Positions 23,446-63,464 of a stretch of 64,000 nucleotides of DNA are shown here, piece by piece (within the stretch, counting starts at the first letter, position 1; each line of letters opens with the position of its first letter). Location of the stretch: contig JAZBRS010000076.1 of assembly GCA_037176725.1 (NCBI GenBank), positions 119,121,001-119,185,000 on the forward strand. The letters run 5' to 3'. Source of the stretch: Posidonia oceanica. Its lineage: Eukaryota; Streptophyta; Magnoliopsida; Alismatales; Posidoniaceae. Under the pieces are notes generated by a model. It saw only the letters and a program-made list of their open reading frames with translations. It ran no database searches and was not told the DNA's origin. Both the position numbers and the translations under genes were made by a program.

Positions 23446-23471
23446 GAATGGGTTTCGGGAGAGCGAATCAT

Positions 23472-23564
23472 CCCATGATACCAGGAATATCATGGGGAAA
23501 AGAGAGGGAGAATGATACTAAGGGGCGATCAAAAGATGTCCCTGGTATCAGGATGATACCAGGG
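23472..23564. other. two perfect hairpins in TE5 3' untranslated region
   Basis: First hairpin: CCCATGATA and TATCATGGG (23472-23480 and 23488-23496), seven-base loop. Second: CCCTGGTATC and GATACCAGGG (23540-23549 and 23555-23564), five-base loop. The second has a homologue in TE4 at 52077-52110, embedded in a matching block of about 130 bases. Confidence 0.85.
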
Positions 23565-23945
23565 GTTGGCTAGCGCGTCCTTGGCATCAAAAGCAGAGGA
23601 TGAAGACAAAACTGTCGTGTTTGTCAGACGAGTAGTTTGGGGTACCAGCCCGACGGAGACTCAGCTAGGGATGCTGGATGGCTTGACTTGACGGCGTGGG
23701 TCTGCAGAGATTCTGGACTCCGGATTGACTGCTGAGGACTTTCCTGCGTTGTGTTGGCTACAAGTCTGGCCAGAGGGCTCAAGATGAGGTTGGCAATGAT
23801 TATGCAATGCATTAAGTAGTCTTGAGGTGCAAGCAGATAGCAGAAAACGCTTTTGCATTGAAGGAACTGTTGATTACATGCCTGTGTCAGGCCAAAATAT
23901 ACAGCACAACTTGAAAGGAAACTACATATTGGCTGCATAAGTGCC
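23565..23945 (-). other. TE5 non-coding stretch after the extra ORF
   Basis: No ORF of note in sense. The part near 23570-23660 matches TE4 51995-52076, including GGGCTGGTA and TTTTGATGCCAAGG. The remainder has no recognised content. Confidence 0.5.
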
Positions 23946-32614: not shown

Positions 32615-35332
32615 TCACGTTACTTCCGCACACATTTCTGTGGCATAGCTGTAAGGGACGCGATGGGTGTCCAGGGTTAAGTCAATAACCACCGGGGCAC
32701 GTGCTGCGAGCACAGGAGGGGTTACAAGGGGACCTATTGGGTATTGAGGTCTACCTAGAGGGTATGGTTGTTGGGGTGGGAAGGCTGGGGCAGGTTGAGG
32801 TCTGCCTAGAAGGTGTACAGGGGATCCTAGCTGAGGTCGCCCTAAGAGGTGGACAGGGGATCTAGGCTGGGCCCTAGCTGGGAGGTGTACAGGGGATTGA
32901 GCCTGAGGAAGCACAGCGGGGGGCGCGAAGGGGCGCTCCGGCCTGGCATGCGGTCGGATCATGTGAACTCCCGACTCGGAGCCGGCAACTGCCGCAAGAT
33001 AGAGATTAACAGGGAAAGGCTCAGAAATATTAGAAATAAGATCAGAAGGGTCTACCACAGAGGTAGTAGGTCCAGAAGGGAAGACAGAGTGAATGCCTGA
33101 GGTTCCAGCCCCTGCCGAATAAGTGTGCTCCAATAGGGGTTGGTGGATGATGCCAGAATGAGGAGGAACAGCTGAATGTGCAGATGCATGAGTGTGTGCT
33201 TGAGTGGATGCCTCGTGCGTGTCAATCACAATCGTTCCCGATTCGATTAGGTCCTGAATTGCGTTCCGCAAGGAGTAGCAATTGTCCATCGAATGCCCGA
33301 CGCTTCGATGGAAATTGCAGAAGAGGTTCGCCTTAAACCAATACGGCAAAGGATTTGGGGGCGGACGAACCTCCAGGAACTTCAGGAGCGATGCAACCTT
33401 TGGCAAGATGACCGTGAGCGGTTCCACCAGTGGGGCGAATTTCTGCTTCTCAATGGGTGGCCTTCTTTGCCTCTGGTATGAGCCTTGCTGAACCGGTGTG
33501 GCAGGGTAGACCGGTCTAGCGGTGGTTGTGATTTGTGGTGTGGGTGGATTCCTAGGTGCAGGGGCATACACCATCTGAGCCGAGGCAGGCCGGGACGGCA
33601 AGTGAACAGGCACAGCAGGAGAGTCGACGAATGCAACAGTGGTTTTCGACGAGTCTTTCCTCTTCGGGCGGTTGTTGCTGCTGCTGCTGTTGTTGTTGTT
33701 GGAGGTGTTGCTGTTGGCACTGTTACTGCTAATCGCGGCCTGCTTAGTGAACGCAGAGAGAGTCGAGAAGTTGCCACTCCGCAAAGAACTCTCCACGCGC
33801 GCTCCAGCTCTGATGAGTGCTGCAAAAGTAGTGACTGGTTGGATGCTAAGCAGAGCTCCAAGAGATGGTCGCGCCCCTTTGATGACGATCTCAATAGACT
33901 CCTCGTCAGAGGGTCTATCTCGAACCTGAGAGGCAAGGGCGTGCTAGCGGCCGACGTACTCCCCGAACGGCTCGCCGGAATTCTGCTTAATTGCGATCAG
34001 GTCCGCCCGCTTTGGGACTAGATCGAGGTTGAAGGAGTACTGCTCCAGGAACGCCTGACTGAGGTCGTTCCAAGTCTTGATGGCTGACATATCAAGCGAT
34101 GTGAACCACTTGAGTGTCGGCCCGGTCAAGCTCTTCTGGAACAGGCAGATCAGTAACCTCTCGTCAGCCTAGAGCTGAGCGAGATCACCGCAATACGCCT
34201 TCAGGTGTGCTACAGGGCAGCCCCTACCATTGTATTTCTCGAAGTCCGGGATTTTGAACTTCGGAGGGAGTACTGCCTCTGGAAAGCAACAGAGGTCCCG
34301 AAATTGGTAGGTCTGGTGCTCAGTACCCTGCACTAGTCGTAGTGCCTTCTCCAAGACGTCCATCCGGTTGTTGATGGGGTCTAGATTTGCTGCCACAGGA
34401 GAGGGATCAGCTGGGGTATTGAGCACATACGCCGAATGGGTCGCACCTAAGTGCTCCTCCGGATCTACCATAGCGTCGCTTGGTGGAGCAACGGGATGGC
34501 CGGCGTATCCGTGCTGGGGAACTGTGTATGCAGGGATGTATGTAGGATGCTGGGCTTGATGCAAAGGGGAAGGTTAGATGCCATGCTGTGCTGTGGGAGG
34601 GGTAGGATGCCGGAGCACCAGTTGCTGTACAGGCGGGGTGCCAGACAGCGAGCCAGTGAGGTACTGGGCTCCAGTCGGTCCAAAGGACTGACCACCAGGG
34701 GGAAGAGGAGCATGCTATGCTAAGTGTTGTGCAGAAGGAGGCGGTAAACGGGCCCCCATCGTCGGAACCGTGAGCAGTTGAGACGATGGTCGAAGCGGAG
34801 GTGTAGAGGTAGATGCATGAAATGCAGGAACTGGCCTCAAAGGAACCTCAGGAACGACAAGAGCACAGGAAGGACGAACCGATAGAGCCATGCCCTGCAG
34901 TCTCTGGGCAAGCTCCATCAGGTGTTGGTACTGCGCCTCAGGCGTCTCGGCAGCGGGAACGCTGAAGTGCAGTGCCGGCGAAGGTTGAGAAGCAAATGGC
35001 ACAAACACGGACTGTCCGGGAGGAACAGGTTCTATAGTAAAAGTCACAGCAGCGGTAGGAGGGATGTCAAAGGCGACGTATCCCTAGGACGAAGGGGGCA
35101 ATGGCGTCTCCGAAGCGCGAGTAACGGTCATCAAGATAGACTCGACGACCGGATCCGGAGGGAGAGATGCTTGCCACTGTCCCGGAACATACTGAGATCC
35201 TAGAGGCGTCAAGGGAGGAAACCCTGGCGTCGGAGGGGGAACGAAAGGGACAGAAGGAGCAACCGAAGGGGCTGGAATGGAAACACCCTCCGTGACAGGA
35301 GTAAAGAGAGGCTAACTGACATACTGGGTCAT
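32615..35332 (-). pseudogene. gag: TE5 gag polyprotein with several nonsense codons
   Basis: Start ATG at 35332-35330. About 900 codons in one frame. It has a proline-rich N-terminal third, then the capsid domain with PPKFKIPDFEKYNGRG, HLKAYCGDL, SLTGPTLKWFTSLD and FLEQYSFNLDLVPKR (34300-33960), and a CNFHRSVGHSMDNC zinc-like knuckle (about 33325-33285; C-x2-H-x4-H-x4-C). The C-terminus has HLLGRP repeats (32760-32890). In-frame stops lie near 35312 and 35083 and at 34715-34717, 34169-34171 and 33944-33946. No frameshift. The capsid closely resembles that of TE4. Confidence 0.88.
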
Positions 35333-36658: not shown

Positions 36659-39600
36659 TGTAGTAATCCCAATCAGAATTAGGCTTACTATTAGCAGCGA
36701 AGTCCGAGGAGGAGGGCTCAACTCGAAAACACTTAAAACAGAGGAGAAAAGATAAGAAAGGAAGAAGATAAGACAATTCAGAGTCGCCACCGTGTCTATT
36801 ATCGGGAGACAAGGAAAACCGGGGGAAATGCGTGGATTAACACGCAAAACCAAGCAAGAAATGCAAAGCAAAGCAATGCAAAGGAAAACAAATGCAAATG
36901 AATGCAAATGAGATGACTCATGCCTAGGATAAGGGCAATATGGTCATTGTGGGCCAAAAGACTGGGCAAGAACTCCTGTTACGTGCGGGGAAGGTGTTAG
37001 GCACCCTCGACACGCCCGAGAATCGGTCTTTCTAGGCTTGCGCTCGCATACGCAGGGAAATGCAGATTTGAATGCCTAAATGCCAATGAATGCCTGAATG
37101 AATGCTCAAAGGTGTGCTCTAAGTGGTGGGAAGCAAAGCAGGAAAGTAAACGTGCAGTCTAAGTGCTCAGCAACGCTGTCTGTGTTTCGAACCGGGCGAA
37201 ACCTGGCTCGTGAGAACTCCAGGCAGTAAGCATCACTACCCTATATGCAAATGCAAGCGAAAAAGCAAAACGACGGTAAAACCAAGCAATGCAAGCGACA
37301 TGCAAAGGAAAACGGCATAAGACACGTAAAACAATGCGAGAAGCGGAAGCGGCACGCAAAACGGTGCAAGAAAACAAGATCGGCACACAAAACGGTGCGA
37401 AAAGCAAAGCGGGCACGCAAAACAGTGCCAAAAAACAAAACAGCGTGCAAAACAGCGCAAGAGACAGAGCGGGCACGCGAAACGGTGCCAAAAGCAAAGC
37501 GGGCACGCAAAACGGTGCCAGAAAACGAAGTGGGCACGCAAAATGGTGCCAAGAGCAAAGTGGGCATGCGAAACGGTGCCAAAAGCAGAGTGGGCACGCA
37601 AAACGATGCCAAAAGCAAAGCGGACACGCAAAACGGTGCCAAAACAGAGTAGGCACGCGAAACGGTGCCAAGAGACAAGACGGGCATGCAAAACGGTGCC
37701 AAAAGCAAAGCGGGCATGCAAAACGGTGCCAAGGAAGAGGCGAGCACGCGAAACGGTGCCAAGAGCAAAGCAGGCACGCAAAACGATGCCAGAAAACGAA
37801 GCGGGCAAGCAAAACGGTGCCAAAAGCAGAGCAGGCACGCGAAACGATGCCAAAAGCAAAGCGGGCACGCAAAACGATGCCAGAAAACGAAGCGGGCACG
37901 CAAAACGGTGCAAAAAACAGAGCAGGCACGCGAAACGGTGCCAAAAATAGAGCGGGCACGTGAAACGGTGCCAAAACAGAGCAGGCATGCGAAACGGTGC
38001 CAAAAACAAAGCGGAATAAAACATCGACAAAGCCATGCATATGCAAATGCAAAGAGAGAGGACAAGAGAAGCGAAAGGAGAAGCAAACAGTGCGTGTGTG
38101 AGAACAGACACTGTTTAAGGGCCACGCAGAGTAGGTGTGAAGACCTACAATGGGGAAGATAAGCAAGTGGAAGGATCACCTCCATTTTGTAACTGTTTCC
38201 CACTAAACCGTCCCACGATATTTCTCGCACGCTGCCCAAAGCTCGCAGTGCGATCAGATCGTGGAAAAGGGGGAAGAAAGTTGTAATTAGTGGTGAATCC
38301 GGGGGAAACACAACGCAAAGCACTTGGGAATACGTGAAAAAGGAGAGCAGAGCTGATTGATAAGAAGAGGAAGTCCTATTCTACATGTTCGAGGAAACAG
38401 AAAACGAAAACGATGCATGCAATGCAAATGGTGTGCAAATGAATGCTGTGCAGGGGTTCAGGAGGACTTACCTAGGAAATCTGAGGCCTGATCTAAGATC
38501 TGCTTGGTCCATGCTAAAGAGCGCTCCGCCGGGGTCGTCCAGGTAGCTTGGTTGAGAAGATCCTACGGCCGGATTGGAAGATATCCCAGCTTCAAGGCAG
38601 AGGGGCCAGAACAGGGGAGAAGAATGGATCTAAGTGTAAAGGAGGTCCTAGGGGTGTGCAAAACAGGTCCTCCCCTGTGAATGGGAGCTAAGAGTGTTTA
38701 AGTGTGTGCAAGGAATGCCAAATGCAAGAATGCATGAGTGCGATGCATGCAAAATGCAAGAAAAGACCTAAGGATGATTTTTCAGAAAATTGGGGACTTA
38801 AATGCAATTTTTGAAAGAACGGAGGTCTAAATGCAAAGAATTTGAAAAGTTCGGAGCTTTTTATGCAAGATTTTTCAAAACTTGGGGGTCTGAATGCAAT
38901 TTTGCAAGATGCAGGGTTCGAAATGCAACCTAATAAGGTAAACGTGCATTGGAATAAGCTTTGCAATCATATGGAGGATCTATGTGCAATTTTAAAACAT
39001 GCAGGGGTTGAAATGCAATTTTTGTAAGAAAAATGCAAGCTAAATGTATGCTATGCATGATGCAGAGGACCTATGTGCAAAATCAGGAAACAAGGGCTAA
39101 GAATGCGATGCAGTAAATGAAGGATGAAAACAGAATGCTTGATAACAGATCAGAGGACCATGATGCAAATAATGCAAAGATCAGGACTTAACAGCAATTT
39201 AATAAGATAACAGTAAGCATTTAAATGGCATTTAACAACTAAAGGACCTAATTGCAAAAATAAAAACATGCTGGGGCGGACAGTAAAGCATAGCAAGTTA
39301 TGTTGAACTAAGAACGGACTGATATGCAAATATAGCAACTTACTGGACTAGATCTAAAGAAATACAATTAAACCACAACAACAGAGGACCAATATGTAAT
39401 AACAGAAACATGCAGGGCTTAATTTAAAAGACAACTAAAGAAAATGAACAGCATGCAGATGACAGTGCAAATAGGCAAGAATGTAGACTTTAATTGCAAT
39501 TCAATATGATTTTAAATCAGAATAAAATGAGTCTTAAACTGATCTGGACCTAGATGTAATATTAGAAAGTTATTATGATAACAATGCAATGCAATGAAAA

Positions 39601-42688: not shown

Positions 42689-42693
42689 CTTGC

Positions 42694-43301
42694 ATTGCTT
42701 GGTTTCCCCGCAGTTTTGCTTTACCGCTTGCATCTGCATTAGGGCTATGATGCTTACTGCGTAAGAGTTCTCACAAACCAGGGTCTGCCCAGTTCGGAAC
42801 ACTAGCAACGTGGCTGAGCACATAGATAGCACATTTATTTCCAATGCATAGTAGGTAGGCATTTATGGCATTTAGGCATTAGGCTAGTAATTCCTTGCAT
42901 TAGCACGTGATTGCCTAAGAAAGACTGACTCTCGGACGTATCGGGGGTGCCTAACACCTTCCCCGTGCGTAACAGGAGTCCTTGCCCTTTCTCTTGGCTC
43001 GCATCGACCTTTCCTTTATCCTAGGCATGAGTCATAGCATAGCATAGCTTGGCTTAGCATTGCATCCCTTTGCCCCCTTGCATCCAGTTTTGCATGTCTT
43101 TTCATGCTTTACCCTTGGTTTCCCCTATCTTCCAATTCAATAGACCCGATGGCGACTCCGATTTTGTCTTATCATTTCTTTTCTTTTTTTGCCAGCGTTT
43201 CCGAGTCGAGTTTCTTCCCTCAGATCCCGTCGCATATAGTGAGCCTATTTTGATCGGTGCACGCAAGCTTTGGTAACATGCATGGACGATCAGAATTCGG
43301 A
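42694..43301 (+). repeat. TE4 5' LTR, second part
   Basis: Resumes after the TE5 target duplication and matches 56723-57339. It includes the conserved block 42933-42990 and an internal TGGCGACTCCG (43150-43160). It ends CAGAATTCGGA, while the 3' LTR ends CAGAATTCGGGATTACTACA; a nine-base deletion at the very end explains the difference. Confidence 0.9.
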
Positions 43302-43302
43302 G

Positions 43303-43320
43303 TGGCGACTCTGCTGGGGA
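43303..43320 (+). promoter_or_regulatory. TE4 primer binding site (tRNA-Arg type)
   Basis: TGGCGACTCTGCTGGGGA, identical to the TE5 PBS on the other strand. Lies two bases after the deleted LTR end. Fixes TE4 as plus strand. Confidence 0.88.
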
Positions 43321-44197
43321 GCAGTACTCCGGCTTTCGCCTTGGCCTTCCCGCCTCTTGCTTTTGTGTTTTGCTTGCCTTTTGCTTTTGCTTGCCTTACC
43401 TGCTTACCTGCCTGCTTGCTTATTTACCTGCTTTATGCCATGATTGCTTGTGCTGCTTTATTTTCCTGCATCACATGTCTAAAATAATTGCTTGGCACCT
43501 GTAGACACCCCAAATCTGGAAGTCGGGCGACAGTTGTTTGCTCCTAGAAGCATACAGACGAGGCAGCTCCAACCTTTTCTTGAAACCCCAAGCCTAGACC
43601 CAAACCATCCCAGACTAGCCAAAACCCCACCAGTCACATCCCAATACATCCACTACCATAAAAACCACAAAACCCTAGCCCTGGATGGTCCTCGAACTAG
43701 AGAAGCCAGATCAGAAAGGTGAGGCAGCTATTGACAGAATACCTCCCGTGCAGAGCTCCCGCGTGTTTTCCTGCATCAGTGGCAACACTGACAGGGTCAC
43801 TCTCACGTCGAGCTCCCGCGTGGCACTCCCGCATGTTTTCCTGCATCAGTGGCAGAAACTGGCACTCTGACACTCACGTATAGCTCCTGCGTGATGCTCC
43901 CGTTTGTTGTCCTGTGTCGGTAGCGAAAACTGACAGATTGACAGCCGCGCCCAGCTCCCACTTCGAGCTCCCGCGTTATGTCCTGTGTCAGTAACAAAAA
44001 TCAGGCAGACCAATCACCTTGGCCCACCTCCTCCTCGCTCGCCATTGGCTCCCACCGATCTGGGCTTGTGCCTCCGGACACTTGGACCATCCAACCGCAC
44101 GTCCCAACCAACTCCATCCATTGATCTTCAGCAGCCATCTCAGCCTTTCGTTTTGAATCTCGATCTGTGCCAACGGCCAGCATCGACTCTCGCAGCC

Positions 44198-44204
44198 TAT
44201 AAAA
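44198..44204 (+). promoter_or_regulatory. TATA box of TE6 LTR
   Basis: TATAAAA in GCAGCCTATAAAACGCC, followed by a C-rich stretch that would hold the transcription start about 30 bases on. Confidence 0.55.
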
Positions 44205-45009
44205 CGCCGACCAGAGCTTCCCAACGTCCGGTTCAGCACTCCCTTGCATCCCTGAGAGCACCACCTACACCCAGAGTGTCCCCTCCGAGCTTCTGAGCAC
44301 CTCCCGACCTCTAAAACCCCTCAATTCCAGCGTTCTGGAAATGAAGAATTATCTCCGGTGAACTCACTCACCGTCGAGACCCCCACCGGCATTTCAGCAC
44401 CTCCAGAGCGACCCCTTGAACCCGCGAGGAAGAGCACCACCTTCCCAAGTGACTTCCCGAGCTCTATCACTCCGTCTACCTGCCTGTTTGAAGCAGTAAC
44501 GTCACCAGAGAAGACAGCATCCTCGACGCGTTTCAGGTATGCATTCGGCCTTCTAGTAGCGTAGAACTGCCCTCTAGTGTAGTGTTTTCATTCCCCAGTA
44601 GTTTTCTACTTCAATTGTAGTCTGCATTGTTGTTCCTTCTTCTCCTCCGCCGCCTCTCGTGCTAGGCAGATGGCTCGCGCCCGGCCTCGCGCCGACGCGC
44701 CCCTAGCCACCTTGCCTCGCTGCGTAGAGCCTCCGGCTAGCTTCCCCGCATCCGCCTCAAACCTCCTCAGTGTGACTCAGGCTGATAGCACCTTCCAAGC
44801 CGCCTCTATGGCCGGCGGAGAAGTGCGGTCACCGGCACAATACTACTGAGGTAGGGGTGACGCTCCAGGCGGTACCACCTCGCATCCGCACTTCATGTGG
44901 ATAGCTAGGTGTGCCACCTCGCCTCCCCAATTTGTTTCGTCGCGTTCCATTGAGCATCGGGCCCGGAATCGGGCAATGAAGATCCTCTGTCTGGCAAGCC
45001 GGTCCTGCG

Positions 45010-45475
45010 CTAAGGTCCCGCGTGGACCTCCCACTTGTTAGACTGTGACACCAGGCTGAGCTTCCAGCCTCTTTCTGACCCCTGTTAGCATCTGTTGCCT
45101 TCATATTTTTGCATAATATTGTTGTCTAGTATCTTCTCATCAGTACCTATCCGCTTTCTTTAATTTCCATTGCCTGTGGGTCCTGGAATCTGGCGATGAA
45201 GGTTCTCTTTCTGAACCGACTGGTCCCGCGTCGAGGTCCCGCGTGGACCTCCTGCGTGTTTGACTGAGATATTAGACAAAGTTCCCAGCCATCATTCCGA
45301 CCCTCATTTATGCCTATTTCTTAGATGTTATTGCATAATGTTGTTCCGGGATACTTCCTCCCCATCCTCCAACCGGTCTCATACCGAATTGGATTGAGGA
45401 GGGCCACCCATTTGGCTGTGACTACCACTGGAAGTATGAACTGTCCCCGTGTGGAGGTCCCGCGTGAGACCCTCG
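45010..45475. repeat. GGTCC-CGCGT-GGACC hairpin units in TE6
   Basis: Three diverged blocks of about 215 bases, each with AGGTCCCGCGTGGACCTCC or a variant (near 45014, 45233 and 45450). Inverted arms GGTCC and GGACC enclose CGCGT. The third has GAGGTCCCGCGTGAGACCCTC. A separate set of CTCCCGCGT units with CAGTG-GCAA-CACTG lies at 43745-43970. Confidence 0.65.
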
Positions 45476-47417
45476 CTTATTTAACAGTGGCTTCTACAGA
45501 TGTGGCTAGAGCCTATCTTCCCTCATTTTGGCTACTCCTCATGCATGTTTACATTCAAGTACCCTTATTTACTTCTCTGTTTCCTTTTGAGCATTGTTTA
45601 CTTAAGTCTTACTTGCTTTACTTATGCTCCTTATCTTGTACATTACCTCCTCGCTTTATAATGTTTATCTCCTGATTGCATGCAGCATGTGTGATGTTTA
45701 ATTACATTCTATCTTCTCATGTATGTTTGCTTCTTAGCCTTACATAGCTATTTGCCTTGGTCTTCCTTTAATCCATGAGCATGTTTACTTAAGTTTCTTT
45801 CCTTTCGCCTTCTTAAAATAACATGGCATGTTTTCTTTAGCTAGAACATATTAATTGGCCTTCAGCCTACATTGAGCCACACTATGAGCGGAATGACGTT
45901 AGAAAAGGCCACTCCTCGGGCGTGTCGGGGGTGCCTAATACCTTCCCCGCACGTACTAGGAGTCCTTACCCATCTCTGGACCACAATGACTCAGTGTCGC
46001 ATCCGTTTTGCATGGATCCACTTTGATTTCTTTTGCTTTTATTTGTTTACTCCAGTTTTCCTTGTCTTCCGGTTTTTCCCAATTAGACTAGGTGGCGACT
46101 CCCCTATTTTGTTGTTTATCTTATTCGTCGATTTCGATGTTTATTGGTAATTTTACACTCTTTATCGGGTCGAATCTTCCTCGGACATGCCATTTTTTGA
46201 GACCCTCTTTCTCTTCAACCGGGCGTCTGCGAGCTTTGGCAGTGGCTCCCATATCGTATGCGAGAGACGGTCGCATAAGAATGACCACTCCGTTAAGGAA
46301 TTTAGACTTGATCCCTTTTTCCTTTTTTCCTTTTATTCTTTAATCGTCACTTATCATTTTATTGGTGTTTTCTTCCTTGAGTTGAACTTTCCTCGGATAC
46401 ACCATTAGCTGTGGCCCTCATTCCCTACGGCCGGGCGTCTGCGAGCTTTGGCAGCGGCCCCCGAGTCGTACGTCGAAAGAGACAGTCACAACACCATACA
46501 TGCTTTTTGGGTGATGAATGCTTTGCTTTGCACATTTGCTATGCCACTACACACGCACATGCCATGCATGCCCGCTTTTGACATGATAAGTGTTTCCTTT
46601 TCACTATCATGATCACATACACTTGCACATGCCATGCCCATGCTTTTTGCCTTGCTATGTGAATTGCTTGCATGCCATGACTTCTTATTTCTCTCCCCTT
46701 CGCATATGCCATGCCTAGGATAGTAGAAACTTGCTTGCTTCCCTCTTGCTCAATCTAAAAGCCACAATATAGCAAAGCAATAACATCTAAGCACAACTAG
46801 AGCCAAAAACTTGCAGTTCTTTTCCCTTGGTTTAATAAAACGCAAGTAAAACGCTCTAAAGCATCTACATCAGCATTTAGAAGGCATGCATTCTTCTCAC
46901 CTGAGTCAACCCACAGTCTGAGAAGGATAGTCCCGGTCTCTTGCTCCCAACGCTTTGGCGTGGTGTGAGTAGATCTGTCTGTCCCCCCTTGTCCAGGGGT
47001 CGCGTTGGTGTTTTTGGAGGGTACCACCCATGCTTTTAGTAGGGTCGAGGCCACCAATGCACCACCCGTTCTACCTGAGCTTTGGCAGGGTCGAGACGGG
47101 AGCCTTTCTTCTGGCCTGGAGTCTGTATAATCCCATTACCCTTGAGTGCGTCCTGGTAGGTCATCTACTCGGGACATGCATGGTGAGAGAGCGCATATTA
47201 GGGCATTCATCTGCATCATGCCACCCCTAATAACTCTTTTTGCATCCAACCTCTAACGTGTTTATTTGTTTTGCAGGTAGGTGCAGGTTCCTTCGGCTAG
47301 GATCCTGAGCGTCCCTCTCTGTCTCTGAACTGTCTATCGCTTCCGACAGTAGCTAGCTTTAGGTCTTGTGTCCCTGCCTTCAGCCGCAGATCTATTTGCT
47401 TCCGCTTGCCGTCCGCT

Positions 47418-49861
47418 ATGGCCCAGCATATCGGTGAGCCTCCTTCCTCATTGGCGTCAGGAGAGGTACTGATTTCGGTATCTCCTTCCGTTGCCTTGGC
47501 GTCCCCCGTCTCCTCTCCACTTCTGGTGCAGGAGACCTCCCAACCCATTTATCTGGATCAAGGGTCGACCCCAGCTGACCTGGAGCTTGTGATCGCGTCT
47601 ACCGCGGTGACCGCCACTCGAGCTCCAGGAGCGTCGCCTTCTGTTCCGTCCCAGGGCCTTCCCATCTTGGGAATCCAACCTTCTGTGGCTACCCTTGGCG
47701 TAGGATCCACTCCGGTTGCTTCCTTGGTCTCCGCACCTCCCTTGGTGGACACCTCCTTGCGCCCCAGCCCGTCGGTCGATGCTTTCTCTGCCTTGCAAGC
47801 GCAGTGTTTATTGGTTAAGGCTGATAGGCTGCGAAGCATGGCTTTCGCACTCGACCTGACTGTGGCCTGTTCTTCCCGCCCAACCCCTGAGGTTCCGGTG
47901 CTGCCCTCTGTAGCCCTGCAGGCTCGCTACACTGCACCCCCGCCCTTTTCGTCGCCTCGGCTCCTCACAGCTCTGGCGATGGGGGCACATTTCCAGCCTC
48001 CTGCACCTGCACAGCACCTTGCACTACATGCAACTCCTTCCTCTGGTGGCCAGTCTTCGGGATTGGCAGGAGCACAGCACCCCTTAGGCTCGTTGCCCGG
48101 CACTGTGCCAGTGCAATAGCTGTTGCTCCCCTGCACTACACCTTACACTGCACAGCATATAATTTATCCATCTTCCTTGCATCAGGTTCAGGCTCTGCAT
48201 ACATAGCACCACATCCTGCACCCTTGCACGGGTATGCTGGCCCTCATGCTACGACACCAGGTGGTGTGATGGTGGATCCAGAGGAGCGCTTTCGCGCGAC
48301 CCGCGTAGCATACGTGGTCCCTGCCTCTGCTGCACAACCCTCGCCAGCAACAGCCTCAGACGCCTTCCTTGCCAGGTTGGGCGATCTAGAGAGAGCACTT
48401 CATCAAGTGCAAGGCTAGGACCGCCAGCCCTACCAATTCCACGACCTCTGTCGCTTTCCCGAGGCCACACTCCCTTCGAAGTTCCGCATCCCAGACTTCG
48501 ATAGATATGATGGTAGAGGCTGCCCCATCTCGCATCTGAAGGCATATTGTGGGGATCTTTCTCAGCTTCGGGCTGATGAAAGGCTCCTTATCCGCCTGTT
48601 CTAGAAGAGTTTAACTGGCCCCACGCTCAGGTGGTTCACGTCCCTTGACACCGCTACGGTTCAGACTTGGACTGGTCTTTCTCGGGCTTTCCTTGAGCAA
48701 TATGCTTTCAACCTCGACTTGATCCCCAAGAGGGAGGATCTCGTCGCCATCCGGTAGAGGCCGCAGGAGCCATTCAAGGAGTATGTTGGTCGCTGGTGCT
48801 CCACAGATGCCTAAGTCAGAGATAGGCCCTCCGAGGAGGATTCTATCGAGATGATCGTCAAAGGGGCGCTGCCAGCGACAGGGACTCTACTTTGCATCCA
48901 GCACATCACTAGTTTTGCATCGTTGATTAAGGCTGGCGCCTGCGTGGAAAGCTCACTACAGAGTGGGCATTTCCTTGCACTTTCTGCATTGGCTAGGTAG
49001 GCTGACAGCACTAGCAATCGCCGCAGCAGCAGCAACAGCAACTCCGCTTCCGACTACTCCAAACAGCACGCCGTCGCATGCGCTGATCCTCCTGAGGTGC
49101 CTGCCTTTGTAGAAAGTCAGCTAGACCCTTTTCTGCTAGTGCACGCACCTATTTATGCACCCACTGCACACACTGTCACCATTGAGCCAGTGCATCACGT
49201 CGCACCAACACAGCAAGGATGACAGCCTAGGCAGAGACGAGTCTGCCGCGCGAAGAGCGACTTCACCCCACTTGGTGAGCCGTTAAGTGCCGTCTTTCCC
49301 TAGGTTGTGTCGCTTCTGAGGCTTCTGGAAACTCGCCCACCATAAAATCCTCTTCCAAGGTGGTATGATGCGAGCAAGCATTGCGATTACCATCGAGCCC
49401 TGGGGCATTCGACGGATAATTGCCTCACTCTCCGGGATGTCGTTCAGGACTTGATTAACAGCGGGACCCTTGTCGTCAATCTGCAGGAGGCTGCTCACAC
49501 ACCTGCACTTGCACTTGCACACCCTAGCGTAGCTGGCCCTTCCTCTTCGGAGTCTGTGGGCTTCGAGGATGCCGGAACCTCGGGGGCTTACCCCAATCTT
49601 CTTTGAATTCAACTCTGCCCGGTGGGTCTTTCCGATCCCATCAGTGCAATCCCCCCTTCCTATCTCTCCCTATTTGTCTGGGGGACGCTCGGAAGCGCAA
49701 CAGCAGAATCAACAGCAAGCTCAGTCGCAAAACTGTCCAGGTAAGCCCCTTCTCCAGCATCAGCAGCCCCAGTGCTCCCCGCACTGCCGACAGCAGATCT
49801 CGCTGACAGCATCAACAGCGTAGGGGCAGACCCAGCACCTCCCTCCTAAGGTCGCTGACAG
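47418..49861 (+). pseudogene. gag: TE4 gag pseudogene
   Basis: ATG 47418. A frame of 234 codons (proline/serine-rich N-terminus) to TAG 48117-48119, a frameshift before 48224, then the capsid domain with PSKFRIPDFDRYDGRG, HLKAYCGDL, SLTGPTLRWFTSLD and FLEQYAFNLDLIPKR (48480-48750), and a CDYHRALGHSTDNC knuckle (about 49380-49422). At least eight in-frame stops follow, including after HQVQG, RLF and GRWCSTDA. The sequence ends at a perfect splice donor CAG|GTAAGT (49859-49867). Motif by motif it parallels TE5 gag. No protease follows. Confidence 0.85.
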
Positions 49862-50012
49862 GTAAGTCCCTCTTACCTCTCGTTTATTTCCTACACTGTC
49901 TTTTCTTTTTGTTTTGTTTTGTTTTTGTGTTTTCTTGCCTTGTCAAAAATCATAAAAAGCATAAGAATAGCAAAATCCCTAAAAACCTGCATTTCTTTTT
50001 CTACATGCATTT

Positions 50013-50216
50013 ATCATTCGGGCTGATACCCCTAACTATCCGGCGATGGGTCCGTTAACCTATCACCACTAGGCTGATACCCCTAACTATCCGACGATGG
50101 GTCTGCTAACCTATCATCACTGGGCTAGCAGCCCTAACTGCTCGGCGATAAGTCCGTCAACTTATCATTCAGGCTAATATCCCTAACTATTCGGCGATAA
50201 GTCCGTCAACTTATCA
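50013..50216 (+). repeat. two-stem hairpin units in TE4 3' untranslated region, block 1
   Basis: Four units of about 49 bases. Each has stem 1 around CCCTAA and stem 2 around TCCGTTAA. Stem 1 arms are GATA/TATC, AGCAG/CTGCT (50127-50142) and AATA/TATT; stem 2 arms are GATGGG/CCTATC or GATAAG/CTTATC (50147-50166). Arms vary but remain complementary. Confidence 0.88.
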
Positions 50217-51651
50217 CCCTGCACATATCAATCACTTTGCATGCATATCCATTCATCTTGCACATATCTGCCATCATGCATTATTATTTATTGCATGTAC
50301 ATATCATTTCTTGCATTCTATAAAGCATAAAGCCAAAAAAATCAAGAAAATAAAAGCAGCAAAAATATTTTCTTCGCCTTCCTGGTGGTTTTCCCTTGTT
50401 ATGTTTTCCTAAAACAAAAATCATAAAAATACAAAACCAATGCAAAACCCAAAAACATGTTTGTCCTTTCCCCTGCTAAAATATTCAAAACCCACAAACA
50501 TTTGCATAATCAGAAACCAGCTTTGGACAAACAAGCAGCGCCTAGAGGATGTCAAGCAGTGACAGTCTCAGGCAAGTCTCACCCAAGTGGCGCCATCTCT
50601 TGTATGTGGCTACAAAGTGAGACTAGAGCAGAACGGAGCAACTTGCTGAGCTTAAAAACTCTCGAAGCGAGGTCCACCTTAACCAGAGAGTCCACCAGAC
50701 ATGGATAGGACCAAAGCAGAGCAGAGCATAGCCAGAGGCTGTCTTCACATTGCAGAGGCTGAAGGTGCACGCCGATCAGCCAAACTCTCAATGCCTCATC
50801 TGGGACTACTACCCCAAGAGGGCGAAGACATGCATATCCAAATGAATAGAGGTCATGTGAGCAAAAGAAATGTGACAACATGATATGCATGCTGAGCACA
50901 AAAGAAAAATGCAGAAAGAAGTTGAAGAAAGAAGGCACTCATGAGAGGAGTGACTCGGACGAGTGTCGAAGCCACCTCAGCTATCAGCTTCAAGCGCCAC
51001 ACTGGCAGCTGCACGAGATGCACTATCAAGAGGACCTGGCCCCACCCTCCAAGTGCAGTAGCACGCTCTAATCTCCTCTGCAGGCATCTCTACTCCCTTG
51101 GCAGGCAAGATGCGGATCCAGTCACTCATGAGGGGAAAAGAAGATCTATTCTGTGAGCGTCAAAAGCGGTAGACGATCCCTGAAGAATTGAGACGGAGGC
51201 TGAGAAGCTGCATCCAATGCTCTACTACCCTACAGCCAAAGGCTATACTCTGCAAAGCTGAGGCCTCATCCCAAGCCAAGAGTGAAAAAGAGAGCCACCG
51301 ACCACCACTCGGCATGGCGTCGCAAGAGGATTGAGTCCCCTGAGTCAGGGACCGCAGAAGCATCCTTATGGCACAGCTGCTTTGAATCCAAAGCCACCAA
51401 AACATGCATGCTGTAATATATCTTTATCCTCCTTTCTCCCTATTTTCGAAAATTGGAGCCAAGGACGAGCACTTTTGCCTGCCTTGCTCAGAGGCTCTGT
51501 GCTTTTCAAATTTTGCCGCCCACTGCGTGGGTAGGTCCATGATGACTGGCATGAACCTTGTTTGCCACCTTGTGACGCTGCGAAGCATGCCCGCGCTGAG
51601 ACCATTGCACGCCTATCACGATGGGTCCCTGTTTCCTTTCTGCATCATTTC
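50217..51651 (+). other. TE4 unassigned insert-like region
   Basis: 50217-50460 is A-rich with no feature. 50460-51420 differs in composition from the rest of TE4: purine-rich, GC-balanced, with many short frames on both strands (for example 50701-50883 plus) but no domain I can recognise and no LTR-type ends. It may be a captured host fragment or the remains of an extra ORF like that of TE5 at the same relative position. 51426-51651 leads into the next hairpin block. Confidence 0.4.
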
Positions 51652-52445
51652 TACAACCGGGCTAGCAGCCCTAACTACTCGGCGATGGGTCTGTCAACCT
51701 ATCATTTTATCATGTCATCATTTCTGCATCCGGGCTGGCAGCCCTAACTGCTCGGTGATGGGTCCGTTAACCTATCACTCTGCATTCCTCTACATCAGGC
51801 TAGCAGCCCTAACTGCTCAGTCGGCACCCGTTAAAATGTCATCCCACATATCTACGCTGCATACGGGCTGATATCCCCAACTATTCGGTGATAAGTCCAT
51901 TAACTTATCACCTTGCATTTGCATTACTCCATTGCATCCCCCACCATCATTGCACTTTGCACAGTGTACCCTTTCCATCCATCTCACTGCATCTGGGCTG
52001 GTAGCCCTAACTACTCGGCCGACAAACCCATTAGTGTTGTCTCCGCCTTGCATTTTGATGCCAAGGGCACTTCGACTGCCCCCTGGTATCGTTCACCGAT
52101 ACCAGGGGCATCTTTATTCAGCTGCCCCATGGTCTCCCATTTCCATCTACATTTGGACTGACATCTCTAACTGTCACAGGAGTGTCTACGGACCTTTGCC
52201 ACACCTTCGGGTATGGTATTCCTGCTGCATTCGTGGTCACAAGCCATCCCACTTGTAATCACCCCTCTTGCTTGACAGACTCGCTGGCCTGTCACCATCC
52301 ATCGGGATGATAGCCCCAACTATCCGGTAGTGAGTCCGTTAACTCCTCGTGGGTTGATAGCCTCGACTATCCGGTGATGAGTCCGTTAACTCCTTGCGGG
52401 CTGATAGCCCCAACTATCCGGCGATAGGTCCGTTAACCTATCACC
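51652..52445 (+). repeat. two-stem hairpin units in TE4 3' untranslated region, block 2
   Basis: About nine more units, more diverged and spaced by TGCATT-rich sequence. Stem 1 arms include GCAG/CTGC (about 51735), GTAG/CTAC (about 52005) and GATAG/CTATC (52310, 52355, 52405). Stem 2 arms include GATGGG/CCTATC, GATAAG/CTTATC and GATAGG/CCTATC. A few copies (51830, 52030) have lost one stem. Confidence 0.85.
52077..52110. other. perfect hairpin conserved with TE5
   Basis: Arms CCCCTGGTATCG and CGATACCAGGGG around TTCAC. The TE5 homologue (23540-23564) has CCCTGGTATC and GATACCAGGG around a different five-base loop. The flanks also match, for example TTTTGATGCCAAGG just upstream in sense. Confidence 0.88.
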
Positions 52446-54044
52446 CATTCCATCTTAGTGTAATAGCATTTTGTTGCATGGCATTGGCATTCCATCATCT
52501 CGCAGACATCACGTGACCAGGATCGTTTTCCTGGTTTTGCGTGCCCCGCGCTCCACTATTTGTACACTGCATCTCACAACATTCGCATTGCATAGCATCA
52601 TGTAGTTCCTTTGTATCTCCTTGTAGAGTCAATCCTAGTACTGTATCTCATCATTACACGGACATCGCGTGCTTAGGATCCGAACTCTAGGTCCACGTGT
52701 TGCCTAAGGCACCATCTTCATCGCCCGCATGCTTCTTTTTATAGCATTGCCGACTCGGGATGATGCTCGCAGTAGTGCGTAACCCAGGATCGCTTTCTCG
52801 GTTCCGCATGCTCGGCGTTCCACTACATACCTTGCACCCCACTACATAACATCTCATGCATTGTACCCTTATTGCGCTGCCACTCCTCTGTGGTCCTTCC
52901 ATCAATTGCCGCATTCCACTTTCCCAAGTCTTTTAGTACCTGCCGCTGCATGCACATCCCCTGCTTTACTTTTAGCATATTTATTTTCTATGGTATCCCA
53001 TGCACTTGCATCGCCATTCGTCTACAGCTGAGCTTTGCGAATGGCACCCCCGTTGCTTGGCCTACATGCATTGCCTAGTGACAGCATTGCATTTCATTTC
53101 CACTTTTCCGCGTGCATGCACCATCCCGCTTTACCCCAGAGGAGTTTCAGCGTAGTAAGCATTAGTATAGGCATGTCATTTGCACAGCATTCTAGTGTCT
53201 GCATTCATCTGCATTTGCATTCACTTTCCTGCATTGCTTAGGACCCCCTCTGCATTGCATTGCCCCTTCTGCCTCTTCTGCCTGTCTGCTGCCTCGCCTG
53301 GAGACAAACACTTTCTCCTTCTCGCGGCCTCACGAGCTCCTACTTGTTTCACTTGTCCCGAATGGACAAGGGCCCTTGGTCTCCCCTGGACTAGCAGCCT
53401 GCCCAAGCAGCAAGCGTGCTAGCCCTCCTGGAGCTGCTTTTGCGCAAGCTTGGACAAACAGCCAACTTGCCGCATTGCCTTGTAGAACCCCCTGCTTCTT
53501 CTCCATGCATCACTCTGCACTGCCCCAGCATTAGCACAAGCACGCACAGCATTAGCACTCTCAAGCATCAGCATTCAAGCACTAGCACTCAAGATTTAGC
53601 ACTCACAAGCATTAGCAAGCACTCACCTCAAGCATCAGAACCTGCAAGCATTCAAGCACCAGCACTCTCAAGCATTAGCATCTGCAGCATAGCACCCCAT
53701 GCATCAACATCGGCATTAGTGCCAGCACTCACCATGCATCAGCATAGCATCTCCCCATGCACAGCACTCGCACGCGCACTAGTTCATACTAGCTTAGTGT
53801 CGGCATTCGCATCGCATACCAGTTCTGCACTAGCATCTGACCTAACATCTGCACTAACTCCTGCATTAGCATGCATTGCATTGCATTAGCATCCTGCATC
53901 TGCATCTGCATTGTGGCATCGAGTCATGATTTCCGGTGCATCTGCTGGATAAGTGACTCACGCCAACAGTAATTTGTGCTCCTGCCGGCGTTAGGTAGGG
54001 TGTCTAGTCTACCCTGAGCAGCGGTCTCGCTACGCTTGACCTCA
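52446..54044 (+). other. TE4 3' untranslated tail
   Basis: No gene. Rich in GCATTGCAT words. 53520-53900 is a degenerate array of AGCATTAGCACTCA-type words. The last 135 bases match the TE5 tail up to the PPT. CAGGATCG-x-TTTCCTGGTT-x-GC recurs at 52515 and 52790, showing an internal duplication. Confidence 0.55.
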
Positions 54045-54060
54045 CTCAGGGAGGGGCATC
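54045..54060 (+). promoter_or_regulatory. TE4 polypurine tract
   Basis: CTCAGGGAGGGGCATC directly before the 3' LTR, identical to the TE5 tract. Confidence 0.88.
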
Positions 54061-57000
54061 CGTAAGCATCCCATTCTGATAGCCCGGAAGTTGGTTGTTT
54101 TCTCCTGCAGGCTCGTGTGGACTTTGGATTGGCACTCCTTTTTCTAACCCATTTTCTAGCCCAAAACCTAGCCCAAAACCTCACCTAAAACCTTAGCCTA
54201 AACCCCAAGCCTTCTTGCATCTTTTTAAACCTTTTTAGCCCAAGCCCAAGCCCTTTTGCCAATTGAGTACATTGAACGCTGGAATAGGCAGCGTCCAACG
54301 TTGGACGCGCCCTGTTCCAGCGTCCAACGTTGGACGCCTTCTGCTCCAACGTCCAACGACTTGGTTGCAGCAGCGGCTGCTCTGCCCCCTTCGGCTCACC
54401 GTCCGTCCACTCCACCGCCTCCCCGCACTTACTACCCATCCCTTCTCACACTCCATGCCATCCACTACCTTCCAAAGCCCAGTTACTACCCATCTCTTCT
54501 TTATCAGCAACATTCCCGCTCTCTAAGCCCTCACTGCCAATTTGCCACCTCTGTCAGCCACCAGCGGCTCCCTCGCATGCCGACTGACATGCCCATGCCC
54601 CTCCTACCATCCCTCGTGGCTCCCTCACACCCAGAGCACCTGCCAAAGCCTGCCAATTCCCCTCTGAGCCGCTGCAATTTTGGCAGCAAACCCAAGCACC
54701 CAGTGCACAAAACCAGCCCAACCACCCTCTTTTGACAGAGAGCACAGACCAGCACAGCCCCTTTCCTCTGCAATTCTCCACCTCCAGAGCCAGACCAATT
54801 GTCCACCTTCCTCCTGGACCCTTCGTCGACCTCTCCCGTGCCTCCAGCAGCCCGCACGAGCTCGCCGGAGTCAGCTGGTCGTCCACTTCTGCAGTGCTGG
54901 TGAAGGAGGTCGACACACCGTTCCAGGCCACGACGAGGTAAGCACTCTATCCCCGTAGCTCTTGCATGCCTAGTAGCATGTTCCCATGCATTCTTGCACT
55001 TTTTGAATCCTTTTGGTCACGATTCGCGGCCAAGAGAGAGTTCAGTGTGTTGGACGCACCAACTGGTGCGTCCAACGTTGGACGTAGCATAGGCCGGCGT
55101 CCAACACCCAGCCTTGCCTTGCTCTTGTTCTATTGTCTTCCATGCTTTGTTATTGCATGCTTTTCTGTAAATCCATGCTATATGCTTCCTTAAAAGTTCT
55201 CTGATGCTATGCCATGCCTATTTGCTTGTTCCATGCTTGTTTGAATCATCTTTGCATGCTCTGATATCAGTCTGTCATCTGCCTGTGTTGGACGCTAGGG
55301 TGAGCCGCGTCCAACGTTGGACATTGGTTCAACTAGCGTCCAACACTCTTGTTAGCCATAACTTGCTGCCATGCCTATATTATGCCCATTTTTTATGCTT
55401 GTTCATGGTCCATACTTGCTTAGAGATGCCTGGCCCCTATGGCAACCATGTTTCGGTTTGCTAGGTCTTTTCAAGTTGCTTGCTCTTTTTTTGCAAAGTT
55501 TATTTCTTATCTTCCCATGCATGTTCTTCCTTTCTTGCTTTCCTTGACTTAAATGCTTTCTATGCATGCTTCTGTTTGCTCTTACATGTCTCTGCTATGT
55601 CTGCATGCATATAGGTGGGGTTAGAGCTGAGCTCCCCTTTTAGTACAGGTAGGTCTGCATGCTTTGGCCGTTGGACGCCAGAGCCTTCAGCGTCCAACGT
55701 TGGACGCTGCTGGCTCCAGTGTCTAACGTCCTGGCTCCTCATCTTGTTATTCAAAGCTTGCATGTCGTTCTGATCTCCTTGCTTGCATGTCTTCTACATT
55801 TGTATGCATGCTTAGCTTCCTTTGCAACTGTTCTTCAGCTTCCAATAGTTTATTTGCTATTTTATGCATGTTTTTTTATGTGTTGTGCCTCCCAGGGCGT
55901 TGTACGTTGCTGGTGCTGGCGTCCAACACCCTGGTTGTGTCTCTGGCCTAGCACAAGCTACTACTGGTAAGTTTTGGTTTTCTTTTGTGATCCCATGCTT
56001 ATATGTTTGCCCCATGCTCATCCCCAGTAGCCCAAATGCTTGTACCTATTTTTGTTTTGCTTTTGTATGCTTCTTTCTCTCCTCTGTCTTCTGGTCTGTG
56101 TTAGATGCCTGTCCCTCTGGTGTCTAACGTTGGACGCCAAGCCTACAGACGTCCAACAACCTGCTTGCTTTGATCTTGGATTCTAGCTTGCTCCTTGCTC
56201 TGATTCCTCTTCTAATCTTCTGTTACGTTAGACCTACATCTCCTGCACCCAATTAACTGTATATTTGCATCTGTATTGCATCCATGTAGCTAGAATGCAT
56301 GGTTTTCTAAAATTTGCATGCTGTCTGCCTCCAGCAGGTGTTGGATGCCAGCAATGCTGGCGTCCAACGTTGGACGCTAGTGTTGCCAACGTCCAATGCT
56401 TGCAGATGGCTGACAGCCATTTTAAAACACCGATTTTGCTTTGCTCACCGTTTTCTACATTTTTTGCTTCTTTGGCTTGCTGCAACCCCTATGCATGTTG
56501 CCCACCCCTTTGTTTTGGTTTTGCACCCTGCTTTGTCTCGTTTTCCTCACTTCGCCCCGTTTTCCGCGTTTTGCATCGTTTCCCGCTCCGCTGCATAGTT
56601 TTCTACGCCCCGTTGCATCGTTTTCCACTCTTTGCCTCGTTTTCCGTGCCTTGCATTGTTTTCCGCATTTTCGCACCGTTTTCCGCACCCGCTTTGCTTT
56701 ATCGCTTGCATGTCGCTTGCATTGCTTGGTTTCCCTACAGCTTTGCTTTACCGCTTGCATCTGCATTAGGGCTATGATGCTTACTGCCTAAGAGTGCTCA
56801 CGAACTAGGGTCTGCCCAGTTCTGAATACTAGCAGCGTGGCTGAGCACATAGATAGCACATTTATTTCCAATGCATAGTAGGTAGGCATTTATGGCATTT
56901 AGGCATTAGGCTAGCAATTCCCTGCATTAGCGCGAGATTACCTAAGAAAGACCGACTCTCGGACGTATCGAGGGTGCCTAACACCTTCCCTGTGCGTAAC

Positions 57001-57339
57001 AGGAGTCCTTGCCCTTTCTCTTGGCTCGCATCGACCTTTCCTTTATCCTAGGCATGAGTCATAGCATAGCATAGCTTAGCTTAGCATTGCATCCCTTTGC
57101 CCCCCCTTGCATCCGGTTTTGCATGTCTTTTCATGCTTTACCCTTGGTTTTCCCTGTCTTCCAATTCAATAGACCCGGTGGTGACTCCGATTTTGTCTTA
57201 TCATTTCTTTTCTTTTTTTGCCAGCGTTTTCGAGTCGAGTTTCTTCCCTCAGATTCTACCGCATATAGTGAGCCTATTTTGATCGGTGCACGCAAGCTTT
57301 GGTAATGTGCATGGACGATCAGAATTCGGGATTACTACA
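54061..57339 (+). repeat. TE4 3' LTR (3.3 kb)
   Basis: Uninterrupted copy. The start has decayed to CGTAAGCATCCC, with transitions away from TGTAGACACCCC; the end is GGGATTACTACA. It contains the hairpin units 54273-56402, the splice-donor block (GAG|GTAAGC at 54934-54942), a GCACCGTTTTCCGC repeat (56540-56700), and the conserved block 56960-57015. It lacks one hairpin pair present in the 5' LTR (14670-14715). Confidence 0.93.
54273..56402. repeat. GTTGGACGC/GCGTCCAAC hairpin units in TE4 3' LTR
   Basis: Same positions as in the 5' LTR. The pair at 55050-55077 keeps 12-base arms. The pair that is fully compensated in the 5' LTR is partly decayed here (56100-56130), so the two LTRs record different states of the same unit. 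Confidence 0.85.
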
Positions 57340-62815: not shown

Positions 62816-62876
62816 GAAGTAGGGGGAACAAAAGGAATTGAATGAATAGACCAGCAATCTTTCCAATTCAGGAGTG

Positions 62877-62988
62877 TTATACGCTGGAAAACCAGTGGAT
62901 AACGTTATACGCTGGGAGTCCAGCGGATAACGTTATACGCTGGGAGTCCAGCAGATAACGTTATACGCTGGGAGTCCAGCAGATAACA
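62877..62988. repeat. hairpin array in TE2 LTR
   Basis: Four units of 28 bases: GTTATACGCTGG, a four-base loop (GAGT or AAAA), then CCAGCGGATAAC, CCAGCAGATAAC or CCAGTGGATAAC. A related group at 63169-63245 has CACTGG/CCAGTG and AGCTGG/CCAGCA arms. The CGCTGG/CCAGCG pair changes to CACTGG/CCAGTG on both sides. Confidence 0.85.
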
Positions 62989-63464
62989 GCCTCCGAAGCA
63001 CAGCTGCCAGGATCAAGGAATATCCTCTAATTAAAACTCGATTAAATGTCATTAAGCTGGTGTTAATTGCATTGACTGGTCAACAAAGTCTAAAGAAGGC
63101 AAAAACATAGATTTTGTATTTGTCCAAATAGAGAAAGTTTGGAGCTGACTGGGTTCCCACATTACACACTGGAAAAGCAGCAGCCAATGTTAGCCACTGG
63201 AAAACCAGTGGCCAACGTTATAAGCTGGGAATCCAGCATACAACATCCTCAGTCAGTCTATCTTCCAAATTTGGTCAAGAAATGAAGAACATTCAAGTTG
63301 TTGACACTTGAGGCTTAAATAGGGATAACGTTTTGAACTGGAGAAAAGGTGTTTGGCTCAAGCAAGATGCCTTGGATTGAGCGAAGAGCTTCTAGGCGTG
63401 ACCTAATGCAATAGACTATACTACCATGAAGGGAGTGCCAAAACGGGGTATCTATAGTACTACA

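Follow-up and report, generated by a model that had tools for sequence, protein, structure and literature searches.

A 64-kb window of the Posidonia oceanica genome (contig JAZBRS010000076.1, positions 119,121,001 to 119,185,000), which is the whole stretch of DNA analyzed here, holds two nested retrotransposons with long terminal repeats (LTRs), TE4 and TE5. Self-comparison of the window and a comparison of the DNA of the two elements gave the framework listed in Table 1. The 3′ untranslated regions (UTRs) of both elements carry tandem arrays of a short unit, more diverged in TE5 than in TE4, that can be drawn, in the sense RNA, as two hairpins in a row. Pairing within these units has been retained above what ancestry explains when both stems are taken jointly; the same does not hold pair by pair, and hairpin 1 carries the effect. 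The explanation that we favor, at a probability of roughly 0.4, is that the arrays form an RNA structure under weak selection, which may serve as a handle for export or packaging in autonomous elements and in elements that lack pol alike.

The full unit is 44 nt long and consists, in order, of GGCT, hairpin 1 (arms of 4-5 bp around CCCUAA), CGGC and hairpin 2 (arms of 7 bp and a 6-nt loop, CCGUUA, closed by a U-A pair). The original prediction, made from the window alone, had drawn hairpin 2 as 6 bp around TCCGTTAA, and this had to be corrected. The unit itself was confirmed in the 3′ UTR of TE4, where 12 copies lie within 50021-52442 on the plus strand, ten of them full 44-nt units and two of them variants (51798 and 51996). 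The arms change together as had been claimed, with GATA/TATC, AATA/TATT, AGCAG/CTGCT and GGTAG/CTACT in the first stem and GATAAG/CTTATC, GATAGG/CCTATC and GATGGG/CCTATC in the second. The scan of the window for the unit gave one stray match, at 35700, and reversed controls gave one match; no unit was found by the scan in 50220-51640, about 1.4 kb of the span to which the units had originally been assigned. An open scan for hairpins with any loop was carried out in 40 arrays and found 369 hairpins, compared to 223-256 in Markov controls. CCGTTA (79) and CCGTCA (34) were by far the commonest loops and occurred with 8 and 7 arm types, respectively; these 40 arrays had themselves been found by their loops, and the scan alone is no proof of loop conservation. 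Rfam 15 gave 0 matches at the gathering score in the window.

Table 1. Retrotransposons and predicted hairpin features in the 64-kb window.
Feature	Position	Strand	Remarks
TE4 5′ LTR, split by TE5	12807-15497 and 42689-43300	+	From self-comparison
TE5, Tat/Ogre-like	15498-42688	-	Sits inside the 5′ LTR of TE4; coding frames interrupted by stops
TE5 3′ UTR hairpin arrays	21757-23445	-	Full two-stem unit at 21757-21804; many single hairpins, GATAAG/CTTATC and GATAG/CTATC
TE5 counterpart of the three-branched structure	23535-23588	-	From TE4/TE5 comparison
TE5 two-stem unit	23605-23650	-	Arms GGUA/UACU and GACAA/UUGUC; E 5.1e-5 in window
TE4 internal region, pol-less and Tat/Ogre-like, with gag-like stretch	43301-54058	+	From self-comparison and TE4/TE5 comparison
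First sub-array	50021-50215	+	Units 50021, 50072, 50123 and 50172; period about 51; model E 1e-18 to 9e-16
Second sub-array	51660-51909	+	Units 51660, 51733 and 51866; variant 51798 with hairpin-2 arms GGCA/TGTC
Variant unit	51996-52041	+	Hairpin 1 GGTAG/CTACT; hairpin 2 GACAA/TTGTC around ACCCATTAGTG; homologous to TE5 23605-23650
Predicted three-branched structure	52057-52112	+	Outer stem GATGCC/GGCATC, small GGGCA/TGCCC arm, hairpin CCTGGTATCG/CGATACCAGG; adjoins variant unit
Third sub-array	52305-52442	+	Units 52305, 52352 and 52399; period 47; first two with a T.C mismatch in hairpin 2
TE4 3′ LTR	54059-57329	+	LTR pair 95.4% identical over 3261 columns

TE5 is 27.2 kb long, is bordered by the target-site duplication CTTGC (15493-15497 and 42689-42693), and has LTRs of about 5.7 and 6.0 kb with 96.9% identity over 5692 columns. 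Together with the tandem arrays at 21782-23449, this makes it a long element with long LTRs and 3′ tandem repeats, as Tat/Ogre elements are. Its interrupted frames correspond to a protease, a reverse transcriptase with RNase H, a second RNase H and an integrase, followed 3′ of pol by an open reading frame (ORF) with a plant mobile domain (PF10536, E 3.1e-16, 23946-25013, minus strand) that lies between pol and the hairpin arrays. RT_RNaseH was detected in the ORF at 28432-30327, and RVT_3 and then Integrase_H2C2 in the ORF at 27202-28431. We infer that RVT_3 represents the second RNase H (aRH) of the Tat/Ogre type, placed between RNase H and integrase. An aRH in this place is described as the mark of the Tat/Ogre lineage, and a plant mobile domain ORF as present in 57% of Ogre elements (PMC6317226); the features of TE5 fit the lineage as that text portrays it.

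In TE4, the DNA comparison with TE5 revealed no pol segment, none of the sense-strand ORFs of at least 150 aa is pol-like (judged by eye, and for two of them also with Pfam), and the two ORFs tested contained no Pfam family. The two elements have in common a 48-base start of the internal region that includes the primer-binding site (85%), the gag-like stretch (68%), a 3′ UTR block of 123 columns (75.6% identical), within which the variant unit 51996-52041 falls, and the 3′ end, where the polypurine tract lies (72%). TGGCGACTCTGCTGGGGA is found directly 3′ of the 5′ LTR in both. The shared primer-binding-site region and polypurine end are as expected if one protein set serves both elements. With these shared ends and without pol, TE4 has the features of a non-autonomous derivative of the group of TE5. 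The gag-like regions also share a hairpin (TE4 48476-48501, plus strand, and TE5 34240-34263, minus strand), with the arms TCGAAGTT..GACTTCGA and CGAAGTTC..GGACTTCG. Both LTRs of TE5 contain a 30-bp array of GGCAC..GTGCC inverted repeats (16162-16810 and 37323-38014), the folding of which is not unusual. The LTRs of TE4 carry near-perfect palindromes around CAGCGTCCAACGTTGGACGC (13047-13116 and 54289-54358), and the first copy has folding z values of -8.5 and -5.7 on the two strands.

The unit belongs to a very abundant element family. In the 2.96-Gb assembly that contains the window, the pattern CCTAACTATCCGGCGATNNGTCCGTTAAC with up to 3 mismatches was found 47,118 times in forward and 46,508 times in reverse orientation, compared to 0 times for the reversed pattern. 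In a protein search, the highest identity among the 120 matches listed was 67%, and the matches with a named source came from several angiosperms. Besides the window, 74 loci were collected (20 of 8 kb and 54 of 2 kb), giving 75 in all; they were drawn from 100 exact-match places listed on two contigs, a choice biased to copies in which one or more units are canonical, and the loci L001-L008, which overlap later ones, were excluded from all counts. In 20/20 of the 8-kb loci, the units with at most 4 mismatches were all on one strand, the sense strand of the TE4 3′ end, and a polypurine-tract motif followed downstream of the units in 18 of them. The number of clear copies per 8-kb locus was 2 to 21. 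A gag-like stretch was seen in 11 of the 20, and reverse transcriptase or integrase similarity longer than 120 bases in none within the 8 kb, pol further upstream being possible.

That the unit occupies the same place in two elements, as originally stated, holds more widely: the unit is also seen in elements whose LTRs differ and in one that has a plant mobile domain ORF. The latter, locus L024, has an ORF 81% identical to that of TE5 and a mixture of TE4-type and TE5-type units. In four loci (L016, L023, L025 and L027), the interior is of TE4 type and the LTR of TE5 type; the LTR of L022 is of TE4 type, and in L017 a 200-base fragment of such an LTR is present. The presence of either LTR type with TE4-type interiors suggests an exchange of LTRs between families. 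L024 also has, at 1600-2340, a second hairpin type in its 3′ UTR, with the arms CTCGACTGG/CCAGTCGAG and CTCGGCTGG/CCAGCTGAG around TCATCC, in which paired changes are seen too.

A covariance model with two hairpins was built from TE4-type units and was compared to a sequence-only model of the same alignment. TE5 was left out of this alignment; L024, which has TE5-like units as well, contributed six TE4-type rows. The unit at 23605-23650 was scored at 23.0 bits by the structural model and at 16.1 bits, over its first half only, by the sequence model. The corresponding values for 21757-21804 were 22.4 bits and 6.2 bits, the latter for a part only. With filters off, these two full two-stem matches in TE5 were strong and 26/26 matches at E up to 1 in 21212-23990 were on the minus (sense) strand; default filters also gave 22374-22436 (E 7e-4). 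The structural model thus finds TE5 units that are scored weakly by sequence alone. The unit assigned to TE5 at 21764-23445 by the original prediction is indeed present in sense, but the region consists mostly of single hairpins with few full two-stem matches.

Units for the analysis of covariation were sought by their loops and linkers, with at most 6 of 22 fixed letters different, a procedure that favors constant loops. It produced 612 matches. Of these, 491 were kept (310 distinct, from the 75 loci) and 121, in which the loops, linkers or first letters diverged or were shifted, were dropped; a further 6 distinct units are missing from the test with 304 units. An alignment was made of 150 units, 9 of them from the window and 141 taken at random, out of 260 distinct ones; in it, 90.7% of 1800 pair cells held standard pairs, compared to 83.9 ± 0.4% in shuffles and 22.8-44.0% with slid partners, and cells changed on both sides numbered 221 compared to 68.6 ± 7.1 in shuffles. 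Shuffles and slid partners ignore ancestry. A tree null was used as well, in which alignments were simulated on the unit tree and the inferred substitutions were dealt to random columns. The midpoint-rooted nulls of this test and of the slid-structure test start with unpaired stem-2 root positions and overstate the effect, and the run with a paired root is the one relied on. In this run, which was rate-weighted and had a fully paired unit as the root (304 units), the fraction of cells paired was 0.930, while the null gave 0.778 ± 0.063 and was as high in 1/300 simulations. With 263 units the values were 0.933 and 0.824 ± 0.042 (0/200). Stem 1 alone exceeded the tree null in all simulations (0/300). 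Summed covariation reached 656 while the null maximum was 264 (0/200; 310 units); this test, the other tree-based tests of the 310 units, the per-pair test among them, and the comparison of loops and arms used midpoint roots. In an R-scape-like test of a first set (225 distinct units, 41 loci), four stem pairs ranked among the top ten. A competing helix between the 3′ arm of hairpin 1 and the 5′ arm of hairpin 2 was considered and discarded, as it showed no covariation. Predicted folds of five full TE4 units contained hairpin 2 in 5/5.

The way in which the arms change was examined on the same trees. Stem 2 can be followed through GATAAG/CTTATC, GATAGG/CTTATC (G-U), GATAGG/CCTATC and GATGGG/CCTATC (G-U), and one-sided states are widespread (GGCA/UGCU, GAUA/UAUU, GATAGG/CTTATC and GATGGG/CCTATC). 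A G-U pair is good in the sense RNA and its mirror A-C is not, while mutation should yield both about equally in a palindrome. Among 263 units from 61 loci, the ratio of G-U to A-C was 36:46 for private changes and about 20:7 for changes shared by at least two loci (median p 0.006). Shared changes in non-stem columns had no such strand bias (41:43 and 47.5:42.8). One-sided states that spread to at least 10 loci were 4 G-U, 0 A-C and 2 other, and those in at least 5 loci were 8, 5 and 3, respectively. Haplotype counts by locus number did not separate G-U from A-C (9:4 vs 45:29, p 0.76). The G-U excess leans to selection on the sense RNA and is only suggestive. A shared change is less likely to break a pair than a private one, with a median p of 0.0002 for 263 units and 0.007 for 310 units (0.029 and 0.008 with bootstrap trees). 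The conserved loops and variable arms of the original prediction did not stand. Shared changes per column were 2.3 in loop 1, 6.0 in loop 2 and 2.9-4.5 in the arms (310 distinct units, 75 loci), so that the loops change about as often as the arms, and the equal variation that the prediction had named as contrary to it is largely what was found.

A three-branched structure is predicted beside the variant unit. The segment 52056-52117 has a folding z of -5.40, and 0/200 shuffles were as stable; 94 distinct copies occur in 62/75 loci. For its alignment, 63 of the 94 distinct copies were used with the TE5 copy. The variants of other hairpins in the loci are mixed with chance matches, and only those of the long hairpin beside the units were used. 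The middle segment CCCCTGGTATC has two candidate partners, GATGCCAAGGG on its upstream side and GATACCAGGGG on its downstream side, and one L024 copy of the structure has a compensated GGTGTC/GACACC. Tandem units of 28 bp that lie outside TE4 and TE5 (62876-62987 and 63167-63238) form hairpins too, with plus-strand z values of -6.5 and -4.0, and their arm pairs change together (CGCTGG/CCAGCG, CGCTGG/CCAGTG and CACTGG/CCAGTG). Hairpin form as a general trait of the tandem arrays of the window was rejected, as only some arrays fold unusually well.

Several results weigh against selection for RNA structure. Stem 2 alone was below significance against the tree null (21/300). The structure slid by +1 also had a high summed covariation, 340 (1 and 2 of 300), which indicates that linkage inflates this measure. 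No single pair was significant in the first set, where the four best stem pairs had E values of 0.8-9, nor in the full set of 310 distinct units, where the best pair reached E 0.25 on the full-unit tree and 0.075 on the tree of unpaired columns. Columns 5, 6 and 18 of stem 1 had about one shared change each and column 17 had five; with so few, GATA/TATC vs GGCA/TGCY is essentially one old split, and independent events are few. The commonest hairpin-2 haplotype in the sample, GATGAG/CTCCTC, has an internal T.C mismatch and was present in 47/61 loci, with close variants at 52305 and 52352. The strand bias diminished in the set of 310 units and 75 loci (private 44:46, shared 21:10, p 0.10), and gave p 0.33 and 0.16 on bootstrap trees and 0.30 on the unpaired-column tree, on which the test of kept or broken pairs gave p 0.35.

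The folding predictions and the neighboring structure add to these points. Hairpin 1 appeared in the predicted fold of only 2/5 full TE4 units and was replaced in the other three by GGG/CCC or GGGCU/AGCCC pairing. Folding of the units was only moderately unusual, with z between -1.5 and -3.8 for the five units and values of -1.84 and -0.98 at the starts of arrays. When the unit alignment was folded with RNAalifold, hairpin 1 was placed within a different outer helix and hairpin 2 was lost (energy -2.39); our guess is that the common T.C mismatch class causes this loss. Perfect hairpins of at least 8 bp were not enriched in the internal regions (TE4, 5 compared to 3-8 in controls; TE5, 7 compared to 4-11). 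In the three-branched structure, 95.1% of cells were paired (64 copies), with no covariation above shuffles, and the long-hairpin variants recurring in at least 3 loci comprised 3 G-U and 3 A-C. The covariation above background that had been anticipated is present for the whole structure and does not reach significance for any single pair or for stem 2 by itself; likewise, the proposed selection for RNA structure has joint support over both stems and fails in the pair-by-pair tests.

Amplification without function is a close rival and a real possibility. A palindromic seed that arose by chance would have been amplified, and a few arm classes would have been spread by retrotransposition, so that covariation would be a trace of linked ancestry. 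The failed per-pair tests, the nearly single class split of stem 1 and the covariation of the slid structure all agree with such a founder effect, and hypervariable 3′ UTR tandem repeats are habitual in these elements (PMC7004042, PMC11963269). Against it stand the joint pairing above the tree null, the lower frequency of broken pairs among shared changes on the unit trees, and the transfer of the paired model to TE5.

Upkeep of inverted repeats at the DNA level, through template switching during reverse transcription or through repair that copies changes from arm to arm, predicts joint arm changes with no RNA function at all. The occurrence of several unrelated inverted-repeat arrays, in the elements and elsewhere in the window, is what a general mutational process gives, and pair-to-pair changes on one branch are common on the unpaired-column tree (65 among shared changes). 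On the full-unit tree, however, such direct changes are few among the shared ones (mean 2.8). Copying should also have erased the one-sided states, which are stable and widespread, and the T.C mismatch of 47/61 loci. Templated repair had already been offered as the alternative in the original prediction; the spread of one-sided G-U states and the persistent mismatch weaken it, and we regard it as unlikely.

Two further roles are much less probable. The arrays might face the host as a source of small RNAs or be bound as DNA through their GATA arms. The arms are often GATAAG/CTTATC, palindromic boxes with GATAAG, the core of the plant I-box, but the GGCAG/CTGCT and GACAA/TTGTC arms have no box and stems of 4-7 bp are short for a Dicer substrate, and we regard this role as very improbable. 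A part in reverse transcription or RNA dimerization, by loop contacts between packaged RNAs or by pausing for strand transfer or array expansion, would suit the self-complementary UUAA of loop 2 and the variable copy number of the arrays, yet UCAA, a sequence without self-complementarity, is frequent in the loop (13 shared changes in column 35), and we give this idea hardly any weight.

In the favored explanation, that of a weakly selected RNA structure, a Tat/Ogre-like group made up of elements with a plant mobile domain ORF and their pol-less derivatives carries 3′ UTR arrays of units that each consist of two short, consecutive hairpins. During the active life of the elements, it would have been selection on the genomic RNA, rather than on the DNA, that kept the hairpins paired, with arm changes passing mostly through G-U steps. 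Many hairpins together could form a multivalent cis-acting handle for an RNA-binding protein of the element or of the host, and RNA export or packaging may be the step served. The pol-less RNAs would thereby use the machinery of their autonomous relatives. A more specific version, in which the arrays are a multivalent, evolving export or packaging signal that a protein recognizes by the shape of the hairpins and little by the sequence of their arms, and are kept by pol-less elements for the sake of helper proteins, is doubtful.

Macas et al. reportedly described hypervariable tandem repeats in the 3′ UTRs of Tat/Ogre/Retand elements in 2009. The arrays reported here resemble such repeats in lying in tandem between pol and the 3′ LTR and in their variable copy number, and differ from them in consisting of hairpin pairs with retained pairing, the former being described, in the texts available, as sequence repeats. 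In the Tat lineage, tandem repeats at this position are common and seed satellites (PMC7004042), and their origin and function are called unknown (Vicient 2025, PMC11963269); neither article uses the word 'hairpin' in its main text. Among the papers listed by literature searches, which left most subscription papers outside their scope, none had a title on hairpins, covariation, packaging signals or 3′ UTRs of such elements.

The RNA transport elements of mouse IAP and MusD and of simple retroviruses have a 3′ position. Those of IAP (RTE) and MusD (MTE) are, like the arrays proposed here, cis-acting structured RNA of LTR elements that serves export (PMC12786077), and the constitutive transport element of simple retroviruses is a cis-acting structured export RNA too. 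All three are single, compact and found in mammals, whereas the plant arrays consist of many short hairpins in tandem with 0 Rfam matches. The same article states that RNA export in plant LTR elements has had no direct study (PMC12786077). BARE2 offers a parallel for TE4, as it lacks the ability to make Gag, keeps dimerization and packaging signals and is packaged in BARE1 particles; it belongs to the Copia superfamily, and its signals are not placed in a 3′ tandem array in the text examined (PMC3735527). Retrozymes are likewise non-autonomous plant retrotransposons with structured RNA, but theirs is that of hammerhead ribozymes (PMC4918200), none of which was found at the Rfam gathering score in the window.

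If the favored explanation is not true, the case shows how amplified palindromic classes can imitate covariation. If it is true, the tandem repeats in the 3′ UTRs of Tat elements would have a function, and this could explain how pol-less elements reach such numbers. Should the hairpins be a working cis-signal, the function of the repeats and the RNA export of plant LTR elements would both be testable with one reporter.

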